Positions 47,826 to 50,817 of a DNA stretch of 64,000 nt are shown piece by piece. Source of the DNA: Cystobacter fuscus (GTDB taxonomy: Bacteria > Myxococcota > Myxococcia > Myxococcales > Myxococcaceae). The number at the start of each line of letters is the position of its first letter. Position 1 is the stretch's first letter. The stretch lies in the NCBI RefSeq assembly GCF_002305875.1, contig NZ_CP022098.1:6758001-6822000 (forward strand), given 5' to 3'. The notes under the pieces are model-generated. The model ran no database searches and had not been told where the DNA came from. It saw nothing but the letters and a program-made list of their open reading frames with translations. Both the position numbers and the translations under genes were made by a program.

Positions 47826-47999
47826 ATGACGACGAAGCCCGAGAAGAAGTTCCCTCGCACCGAGATCCTGGATCGGCTGAGCGAGCGCACGCGCAAGGTG
47901 CTCGAGCTGGAGGAGAAGAACCTGGAGAACGTGACGGGAGGCGTCGAGCGTGGAAACGCCTCCATCTACGGCCTGCCGCCCCCGCCGGACCTGCGCTGA
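47826..47999 (+). CDS. Candidate RiPP precursor peptide (57 aa)
   Basis: Small acidic/basic peptide, MTTKPEKKFPRTEILDRL at the start, a charged helical leader (LSERTRKVLELEEKNLENV), a Gly-Gly at 38-39, then an 18-residue C-terminal segment, VERGNASIYGLPPPPDLR. Position 31 bp before a radical SAM/SPASM gene, size, leader charge and the GG boundary all fit a ribosomally made, maturase-modified peptide. Tyr48 is the only aromatic in the tail and a plausible crosslink site. ATG 47826 has GGGGAG five to ten bases upstream. The pattern resembles the 'GDL-motif' peptide class I recall, here with PDL; that link is unverified. No separate protease or exporter gene is adjacent, though the ABC pair lies about 1.2 kb away. 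Confidence 0.65.
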   Translation: MTTKPEKKFPRTEILDRLSERTRKVLELEEKNLENVTGGVERGNASIYGLPPPPDLR

Positions 48000-48029
48000 A
48001 GTCCTCCCCCTGACCGCGCGCTCGCCCCC

Positions 48030-49274
48030 ATGCCTCCGCCCGTCCTGCAACCCCGCACGGCCTATGCCGTGTGGGAACTGACCCTGAAGTGCAACCTCGC
48101 CTGCGGCCACTGCGGCTCGCGCGCGGGCTCCAAGCGCGAGGACGAGCTGTCGCGCGAGGAGGCGATGGACCTGGTCCGCCAGCTCTCCGAGGTGGGGATC
48201 CAGGAAGTCACCATCGAGGGGGGCGAGGCGTTTCTCCGCCCCGACTGGCTCGACATCGCCCGAGCCATCACCGACCACGGCATGCGTTGCACCATGACGA
48301 CGGGCGGCTATGGCCTGTCGCGCGAGACGGCCCGGCGCATGAAGGAGGCGGGCATCTCCCACGTCTCCGTGTCGGTGGACGGACTGGAGGCCACGCATGA
48401 CCGCATCCGTGGTCGGCGTGGCTCCTTCCGCTACTGCTTCGAGACGCTGGGGCACTTTCGCGACGCGGGCCTGCTCTTCAGCGCGAACACGCAGATCAAC
48501 CGGCTGTCCGCCCCCGAGATGCCCGAGCTGTACGAGCGGCTGCGGGACGCGGGGTGCAGCGCCTGGCAGATCCAGATCACCAACCCCATGGGCAACGGCG
48601 GGGACAACGCGTGGATGCTGTTGCAACCCGCGGAGCTGCCGGACCTCTACCGGATGCTGGCGCGCATCGCGGTGCGGGCGCGTGAGGAGGGAAAGCTGGC
48701 GTTGGCGCCCTCCAACAACATCGGCTACTTCGGCCCGTATGACGACCTGCTCTTCGCCAACGTGGGACAGGTGTGGGCCGGGTGCAAGGCGGGGCTGTCG
48801 GTGCTGGGCATCCACGCCGACGGTGGCATCAAGGGCTGCCCCACCCTGCCCACCGAGTACATCGGCGGCAACGTCCGCAAGCAGCCCCTGGCGGACATCC
48901 TCGACTCGCGCGAGCTGACCTTCAACGCCAAGGCGGGCACGGAGGAAGGCACCGCGCACATGTGGGGCTACTGCGGGAGCTGCAAGTACGCCGAGGCGTG
49001 CCGGGGCGGATGCACCCAGATGGCGCATGTGCTCTTCAACCGCAATGGCAACAATCCCTACTGCCACTACCGCACGCTGGAGCTCGCGGGGCGGGGACTG
49101 CGCGAGCGCGTGGTGCGCAGCACGCCGGGTCAGGGCAAGCCCTTCGACCATGGAGTCTTCGAGCTGGTGGAGGAGCCGCTGGAGGCGGCCTGGCCGACGG
49201 AGGACACCCACCACTTCACCTACGCGCGCATCCCGTGGTCCTCGGGTTGGGAGCCCTTCGCCCTGCCCGGATAG
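48030..49274 (+). CDS. Radical SAM/SPASM peptide maturase
   Basis: 414-aa enzyme. The radical SAM cluster motif is C21-xxx-C25-xx-C28 (CNLACGHC). GGEAF (SAM contact) follows. The C-terminal SPASM region has Cys residues in WAGCKAG, GGIKGCPTLP, WGYCGSCKYAEACRGGC and NPYCHYRTLEL, enough for two auxiliary iron-sulfur clusters. SPASM enzymes of this size commonly crosslink residues in ribosomal peptides. The nearest gene upstream is the 57-aa candidate precursor (31 bp gap), and a SHOCT-tailed protein follows 37 bp later. The reaction (cyclophane, thioether or other) cannot be told from sequence. Confidence 0.9.
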   Translation: MPPPVLQPRTAYAVWELTLKCNLACGHCGSRAGSKREDELSREEAMDLVRQLSEVGIQEVTIEGGEAFLRPDWLDIARAITDHGMRCTMTTGGYGLSRETARRMKEAGISHVSVSVDGLEATHDRIRGRRGSFRYCFETLGHFRDAGLLFSANTQINRLSAPEMPELYERLRDAGCSAWQIQITNPMGNGGDNAWMLLQPAELPDLYRMLARIAVRAREEGKLALAPSNNIGYFGPYDDLLFANVGQVWAGCKAGLSVLGIHADGGIKGCPTLPTEYIGGNVRKQPLADILDSRELTFNAKAGTEEGTAHMWGYCGSCKYAEACRGGCTQMAHVLFNRNGNNPYCHYRTLELAGRGLRERVVRSTPGQGKPFDHGVFELVEEPLEAAWPTEDTHHFTYARIPWSSGWEPFALPG

Positions 49275-49310
49275 CCCCCGGTCCGCCCCTCCCCCACTGG
49301 AGTGCCCGTC

Positions 49311-50003
49311 ATGCCGGAGTTGACCTCGGAAGGACACCGCGCCGTCGCGGAGCTGGCCCAGCGGCATGGCGTGAGCGGCGAGGCCGTACGGGTCCTGCTC
49401 GAGGCCCTCGCCGTCGGAGGCGGCACCCAGGCCCAGTTCAACCATCCCGAGCTCGGTGGGCTCGGCCAATGGTCGCAAGGCGGCATGCTCATGGTCGGCA
49501 ACATGTTCGACCACGCCCTGAAGGCCCGCGTCGACGCGCTCTGCGTGGAACTCGCCCGGCGGATGCGCATGGAGCCCCTGCTCGCCCCGGCCACGTCCGG
49601 CGCCTCCTGGTGGCCCGCGGAGTTCGGTGAGCCGACCTCCAGTGGCGCGCAAGGAACTCTGCGCTACGCGTACTTCCCCGACCACCGCCGCCTCGTCATC
49701 CAACGGAGTGGGCAGGTGACGATCCACGACACCGGGGAGCATCGGATCAGCGGCGTCTCCCAGCAGCAAGGCGCCGGCCAGTCGCTCACGCTCACCAGCC
49801 AGTACGGCCCCATCCGCCTCTCCGAGCTCCCCGTGATCGCACCCGCTCCCGTGGGGCCCACGAACCCTCCCGCGATCCCGGCGACCGCTCCCTCCACGGA
49901 CCCCTTGTCGCTGATCGAGCGCCTGGCGGAGTTGCGCGACAAGGGCGCCCTCACCGAGGAAGAGTTCGCGGCCAAGAAGGCGGAGCTGCTGAGCCGCCTG
50001 TAG
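49311..50003 (+). CDS. SHOCT-domain protein of unknown function
   Basis: 230-aa protein. Residues about 1-180 are mixed alpha/beta with no family I recognise (opens ELTSEGHRAVAELAQRHGVS, then a Gly/Trp/Gln-rich segment). The last 30 residues, LIERLAELRDKGALTEEEFAAKKAEL split at this point, form a SHOCT helical hairpin, a short oligomerisation or membrane-associated module. It follows the maturase gene by 37 bp on the same strand, so it may belong to the RiPP operon. ATG 49311 has GGAG eight bases upstream; GTG 49302 overlaps that site. Confidence 0.75.
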   Translation: MPELTSEGHRAVAELAQRHGVSGEAVRVLLEALAVGGGTQAQFNHPELGGLGQWSQGGMLMVGNMFDHALKARVDALCVELARRMRMEPLLAPATSGASWWPAEFGEPTSSGAQGTLRYAYFPDHRRLVIQRSGQVTIHDTGEHRISGVSQQQGAGQSLTLTSQYGPIRLSELPVIAPAPVGPTNPPAIPATAPSTDPLSLIERLAELRDKGALTEEEFAAKKAELLSRL

Positions 50004-50367: not shown

Positions 50368-50817
50368 ATGAACTCACGTCCAGAGATCGAGCAGCGCGTC
50401 ACGACCTCCGCTCCCACCGTGCGAGTCACCGCCGAGGACATGCAGCGCCTGCGGGTGGTGGTGGATCGGCACCTCGACGGCTCCCTGGCGGCCGCGGCCG
50501 AACAGTTGGACGGAGAGCTGGAGCGCGCGGTGGTGGAGCCACAGGACCAGATTCCGCCCGATGTCGTCACCATGAGATCGCGCATCCTCTTCGAGGACCT
50601 GGACACGGGCCGTCGCCGCGAGGCGACCCTGGTCTATCCAGAAGAGGCGGATATCGAACAGTCGAAGCTCTCGGTCCTGGCGCCGGCCGGGTTGGCGGTG
50701 CTGGGTCTCAAGAAGAATGACATCATCGAGTGGCCGTTGCCGAATGCACGCCGTACCCGATTCCGCATCGTGGAGATTCTCTACCAGCCCGAAGCATCCG
50801 GTGACTTCCATCTGTGA
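50368..50817 (+). CDS. rnk: Rnk-like regulator of nucleoside diphosphate kinase (GreA/B C-domain)
   Basis: 149-aa protein with an N-terminal coiled coil (about 20-55) and a GreA/GreB C-terminal FKBP-like domain: a SRILFEDLDTGRRREATLVYP strand pair split at 20, LSVLAPAGLAVLGLKKNDII and a closing ILYQPEASGDFHL. Rnk proteins bind RNA polymerase in competition with Gre factors and affect nucleoside diphosphate kinase. Length and domain order fit the Rnk group rather than GreA, which has a longer acidic coiled coil. Its stop is 20 bp before the next small gene. Confidence 0.85.
   Translation: MNSRPEIEQRVTTSAPTVRVTAEDMQRLRVVVDRHLDGSLAAAAEQLDGELERAVVEPQDQIPPDVVTMRSRILFEDLDTGRRREATLVYPEEADIEQSKLSVLAPAGLAVLGLKKNDIIEWPLPNARRTRFRIVEILYQPEASGDFHL

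Follow-up and report, generated by a model that had tools for sequence, protein, structure and literature searches.

A 57-residue precursor gene and a PlpX-like radical SAM/SPASM maturase form a probable two-gene spliceotide cassette in Cystobacter fuscus

The window, a stretch of 64,000 nucleotides from the 12,349,744-base genome of Cystobacter fuscus, carries on its forward strand a small gene, P0001 (47826-47996, with the TGA stop codon at 47997-47999), whose 57-aa product we regard as a precursor peptide with the translation MTTKPEKKFPRTEILDRLSERTRKVLELEEKNLENVTGG-VERGNASIYGLPPPPDLR. By eye, a GGGGAG stretch precedes its ATG. The leader comprises residues 1-39, with FPRTEI at residues 9-14 and a Gly-Gly at residues 38-39, and is followed by the 18-residue core VERGNASIYGLPPPPDLR, whose single Tyr is residue 48. 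The core sequence NASIYGLPPPPDLR carries an Xaa-Tyr-Gly (XYG) motif, and the predicted splice site Ile47-Tyr48-Gly49 (47964..47972, forward strand) is assigned from this motif and from its conservation in 13 precursors. P0002 (48030..49274, forward strand) starts with an ATG 30 bases past the P0001 stop and encodes a radical SAM/SPASM maturase of 414 aa, the proposed splicease. This arrangement agrees with the preliminary description of the locus, which had placed a 57-aa gene with the same Gly-Gly and the same one-Tyr tail immediately before a maturase. The SHOCT protein gene P0003 follows at 49311-50003 (or from a GTG start at 49302). Downstream of the cassette lies a gene with GreA/GreB-C-terminal and Rnk_N domains (50368-50817), which is also found near it in two other genomes (G001 and G003).

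P0002 contains the motif CNLACGHC (C21, C25 and C28) and seven further cysteines at positions 252, 270, 315, 318, 324, 328 and 345. All ten, comprising a CxxxCxxC motif and the SPASM set, were invariant or at least 90% conserved among 26 aligned sequences, which bears out the earlier claim that the enzyme has a full set of cluster cysteines. The best NCBIfam match was TIGR04103 (nif11-class maturase 3), with 618.1 bits over residues 9-408; we take this family to be identical to IPR026482, the PlpX family. It leads the second-best family, the 'GDL motif peptide-associated' maturases of TIGR03913 (363 bits), by 255 bits; P0002 lies well under the TIGR03913 cut-off of 591.75, and P0001 has no GDL. 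The TIGR04103 equivalog cut-off of 725 bits was not reached either by P0002 or by its paralogue (597.8 bits). P0002 therefore falls short of being filed as a PlpX equivalog, both for its score and for the missing PlpY feature. The AlphaFold model of P0002 had a pLDDT of 88.5, and the best Foldseek E-values were obtained with SkfB (6efn), PqqE (6c8v) and SuiB (5v1q), SkfB being the nearest solved structure by both sequence and Foldseek E-value.

The preliminary description had proposed a RiPP precursor together with its SPASM maturase and had named homologous maturases occurring without the small gene as one observation that would speak against it. Conserved pairs were searched for in 147 genomes of the class, where 12 maturases matched P0002 at 73% identity or higher, followed by the next at 59%. 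A P0001 homologue lay directly upstream of all 12, none of them occurring without the small gene; this pairing and the family match uphold the proposal. Maturases at 59% identity or below lacked a P0001-type leader, and most of them stand next to a different gene that has an XY[G/A] site. That count used a permissive pattern (24/24 and 21/23 rows pass and 2/47 fail), with some matches that look like chance (L071, L156, L157 and L182, the last with a better candidate on the opposite strand); for the motif we therefore rely on the controlled count given below. Clusters common to the 12 loci consisted of the enzyme and its overlapping frames only, and no third conserved gene was seen among ORFs of at least 90 aa within about 4 kb. 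Distinguishable neighbour genes were common only to the three orthologues of the window locus, and no transporter or protease was common to the 12 loci.

Counting the window's own, P0001-type genes were found as 13 copies in 8 of the 147 genomes, from two genera, and 12 of the 13 adjoin a maturase. All copies share the core pattern X-Y-[G/A]-[L/I]-P, in which Tyr and [L/I]-P are present in 13/13, Gly in 11/13 and Ala in 2/13, giving 11 XYG and two XYA precursors. The residue before Tyr is Ile in three, Arg in five, Lys in two, Asp in two and Glu in one. Over eight pairs compared, with few changes per pair and partial non-independence of the pairs, pN/pS ranged from 0.17 to 0.56. The lowest value belongs to the two Tyr-Ala copies, which are counterparts in G000 (the genome of the window) and G003 and differ by 10 synonymous and 5 non-synonymous changes; on this ratio they look maintained. 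For the remaining seven pairs the ratio was 0.29-0.56. With 13 copies, 12 of them beside a maturase, the upstream GGGGAG and these pN/pS values, P0001 is more than a chance ORF.

In the genome of the window the Tyr-Ala copy belongs to a paralogous cassette whose enzyme (G000:C1:11220281-11221519; L002, L025 and L047) is 79% identical to P0002 and whose precursor core, SARYALPPPPPTPPPSDVIKDQL, has Tyr-Ala in place of Tyr-Gly and Arg before the Tyr. The thirteenth precursor, SAEYGLPPPDEDIIKN, is an orphan on contig C402 of G086 (L145 9836-10177), a complete enzyme gene being absent from the roughly 9 kb to each side. A short stretch 16 bases past its stop reads VGIQEVTI-GG and may correspond to the enzyme (tblastn E 0.37). 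The same genome holds two intact enzymes elsewhere, which might act on the orphan precursor in trans.

Double-glycine leaders, which C39 peptidases cleave, carry hydrophobic residues at -12, -7 and -4, Gly-Gly at -2 and -1, and usually Glu at -8. The precursors follow this pattern with [L/I] at -12, L at -7, [V/I] at -4 and GG in 13/13, and Glu at -8 is absent from all 13. P0001 had no Pfam match at E<=1, and thus neither a Nif11 nor a nitrile-hydratase-like leader was recognized.

The available parts of the literature describe PlpX as a member of IPR026482 that, together with PlpY, excises tyramine at Xaa-Tyr-Gly (PMC11002830), and give the XYG splice motif and the splice tags PIRPLYGLPI and PIRPGYGLPI derived from the PlpA2 core (PMC10533398). 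They also report spliceotides as protease inhibitors (PMC10373908, PMC11117315) and treat them under cyanobacteria (PMC8868522). The window resembles the PlpXY system of Pleurocapsa sp. PCC 7319 in that the best family match of P0002 is the presumed PlpX family and in that P0001 has an Xaa-Tyr-Gly core with YGLP, as in the PlpA2-derived tags. It differs in its 39-aa leader, which stands against leaders of Nif11 or nitrile-hydratase type, in having no separate PlpY that we could find, in the score of 618 of 725 bits, and in the Tyr-Ala of one paralogous pair.

Among 292 genomes of the cyanobacterial phylum, 16 TIGR04103 loci scored over the cut-off (L164-L179). The 11 of these loci that were inspected all have an XYG-core precursor immediately upstream of the enzyme, and all four precursors put to Pfam, from three loci, contain a Nif11 domain. 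The Nif11 precursor of L164 ends ...VAIYGLPPRLFLQ. The precursor core ...GGATAGIVGSIWPYMVAIYGLPPRLFLQ has the same layout as the window core ...GGVERGNASIYGLPPPPDLR, and one core of this set reads ...AIYGLPP. These loci thus share with the window an enzyme directly downstream of an XYG precursor, but differ in their Nif11 leaders of about 80 aa and in a small downstream LPRSAW protein.

A maximum likelihood tree built from 77 maturases placed the 5 rows of the window group as sister (96/92, starred) to four enzymes whose neighbours are multi-XYG proteins, within an 18-row group that includes Nif11-type enzymes (88/94, not starred). Proteins with multiple XYG sites adjoin related enzymes at L053, L054, L057 and L066, the four tree sisters, and at L056, L055 and L154. 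Like the window precursor, they carry an [FL]PR motif N-terminal to their XYG sites; they differ in having 2-10 sites each, [LF]PRxxW with Trp and, by eye, no double-glycine leader.

Related enzymes have neighbours with similar motifs more widely. For a control count, 144 loci including the window group were reduced to 77 below 85% identity. The motif YG[LIVMAG]P, picked after some of the loci had already been seen, occurred in a neighbouring ORF at 33 of the 77, against 3 for the mirrored motif, 9 with Phe, 1 with Trp, 9 with His and 1 for Y-D. Tandem YG motifs were present at 17 of the 77 loci versus 0 mirrored, 6 with Phe and 5 with His. Dropping the Pro weakened the contrast (YG[LIVMAG] at 69/77 loci versus 41 mirrored, 58 Phe, 26 Trp, 43 His and 38 Y-S). 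Across the enzyme group as a whole, YG[LIVMAG]P is over-represented among the neighbours.

The partners range from Nif11 peptides through a protein with ten [ML]YGV sites (L080) and a zinc-ribbon/FHA protein (L081) to CYG proteins. By eye, those of L055 and L085 look membrane-anchored, and in some others a lipobox-like site reads CYGMPPC or CYGAP. The genome of the window has a third related enzyme (G000:C1:9334271-9335470), 48% identical to P0002. The divergently oriented gene beside it (L045 1395-3236) has a hydrophobic segment ending TLMACYGMPPC, where the X of XYG would be the lipobox-like Cys; similar CYG partners occur at other Myxococcota loci. CxxC pairs before this site resemble a zinc ribbon, at 14.9 bits, short of the Pfam cut-off of 27.3. 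In Lyngbya, the product of a gene next to a same-group enzyme (L081 5465-6055) has VTVYGAPYFEPAPIYGSPAM between a preceding double zinc ribbon and a following FHA domain, both domains scoring over the Pfam cut-off, and could be a spliced signalling protein. Directly upstream of an enzyme in Eremiobacterota, L080 3050-3967 encodes the ten [ML]YGV sites, mostly within QP[ML]YGVVIDPRPxPEPP-like repeats, and has no Pfam match. Short precursors beside same-group enzymes in Polyangia (L083 3366-3899) and Plesiocystis (L084 3563-3856) end KPWLCPMP[LM]YG[VI]P[ML]P[AT]EL and have a different leader.

We consider it quite likely that P0001 and P0002 constitute a two-gene spliceotide cassette. The gene pair, the family match, the motif and the co-occurrence are observed; the reaction, leader removal, export and activity are proposed as follows. 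P0002 would excise the single Tyr48 from the P0001 backbone as tyramine, with a loss of C8H9NO (135.07 Da). Ile47 would become an alpha-keto-beta-amino residue and an internal ketoamide would be left. A C39 peptidase-transporter encoded elsewhere would then cut after Gly39 and export the 18-mer, with a predicted monoisotopic mass of 1814.96 as compared with 1950.03 unspliced. With Ile in the P1 position and prolines in the tail, this internal ketoamide may inhibit proteases covalently but reversibly. In classical ketoamide inhibitors P1 is the residue that precedes the dicarbonyl, and the X of XYG would therefore set the protease target. Counting against the cassette as a spliceotide system are the score below the cut-off, the failure to find a PlpY, the Tyr-Ala in 2/13 precursors and the location of the C39 genes, of which the genome of the window has six matches, the nearest about 148 kb from the cassette.

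How might such a cassette manage with one enzyme and one peptide? Downstream of the enzyme, 16 of 19 cyanobacterial loci examined encode a small protein resembling LLPRSAWxSQLxYLRxxFRAKKALDRIE, which we take to be PlpY by its size and place. A search for a separate PlpY in the eight pair-holding genomes, using a profile of this protein and of related modules and scoring 150 candidates per genome, gave at best a partial match at E 0.07; in two cyanobacteria that had contributed no query rows, the same profile, whose query is PlpY by this assignment, recovered positives at 9.3e-13 and 1.6e-4. Similar modules are fused N-terminally to substrates, as FPRTAW (L053), FPRASW (L054), FPRTTW (L057), FPRANW (L066 and L036), LPRRAW (L056), LPRKSW (L154) and LPRDRW (L055). 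Comparison of the separate with the fused module profiles scored 25.1, a value reached by none of 300 column shuffles (maximum 16.9), and kinship of the two is supported by this sequence comparison. The window-type leaders, with [FL]PR[TSN]xx, scored 15.7 against the five sister modules (maximum 15.3 in 300 shuffles), and 1 of 300 shuffles reached their score against all eight fused modules. Direct homology of leader and separate PlpY was too weak to retain (13 of 300 shuffles reached the score), and the indirect path through the in-cis modules depends, where the leader is concerned, on its FPR motif. FPRTEI of the window leader may nevertheless be the counterpart of the PlpY-like [LF]PRxxW module, on weak statistics, and the module score together with the weak leader alignments makes a PlpY role of the leader in cis plausible. 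We tentatively extend this to a possibility that we hold to be rather less likely than not to apply in full: the PlpY helix would be built into the substrate as a short leader, one enzyme and a 57-aa peptide would suffice, the splice site would be widened to Xaa-Tyr-Ala, and paralogues would swap P1 (Ile and Arg, with Lys, Asp and Glu in relatives) as a set of ketoamide inhibitors. A conserved helix may already have been published, to judge by the title of Richter 2024 (Chem Sci).

The low family score, the Tyr-Ala cores and the unseen PlpY would also fit a chemistry that has diverged from that of PlpX, with P0002 carrying out another SPASM reaction at the same site, such as epimerisation, cleavage without rejoining or loss of the Tyr side chain. 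We regard this as improbable in view of the motif, gene order and tree group shared with the Nif11-type loci. Somewhat less probable still is the crosslinked core of the preliminary description, a cyclophane or other C-C or C-O bond tying Tyr48 to a nearby residue with a loss of 2 Da. Crosslinking is common among SPASM enzymes, and the P0001 leader is weakly similar to HaaA cyclophane precursors (E 0.019). However, the core has one aromatic residue and its conserved part is Y-[GA]-[LI]-P, and the crosslinking maturases among the 25 families shown scored 89 (StsB), 74 (WgkB), 71 (SkfB) and 58 bits (AlbA) versus 618 for TIGR04103. A HaaA-type cyclophane was rejected at 15.2 bits for NF041708, whose cut-off is 55. 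Ile-Tyr-Gly fits a tyramine-excision site instead, and the expected shift is therefore -135.07 Da rather than -2 Da. The core had been called unusual for a crosslinked peptide, which is explained if it does not serve for crosslinking.

P0003 does contain a SHOCT domain (PF09851, 37.3 bits; cut-off 27). The gene had been suggested as a partner, a role that we rejected: among 96 genomes of the family, 2 yielded a full-length homologue, which accounts for 2 of the 12 loci, and none was found in G001, where the maturase of the orthologous locus shares 97% identity. Its role as a substrate through a QYGPI stretch was rejected along with it. In a further, very improbable reading the small gene encodes a regulator or an immunity peptide, and the enzyme acts on the SHOCT protein, with its QYGPI, or on some other protein; P0003 was found at so few of the loci, while the small gene accompanies 12/12.

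Splicing chemistry is known elsewhere, and the stripped-down arrangement of the spliceotide cassette looks like a variant that is perhaps already listed among the 939 predicted splicease systems of Scott et al. 2022, as quoted in the available part of PMC10533398. The Tyr-Ala paralogue bears directly on the need for Gly after Tyr. If the reading of P0001 and P0002 as a spliceotide cassette is true, a minimal leader encoded in the substrate would be enough for backbone splicing, which would help to install ketoamides in proteins. Myxobacteria would then possess small families of ribosomally made protease inhibitors, and the gene sequence of each would reveal its P1 residue.
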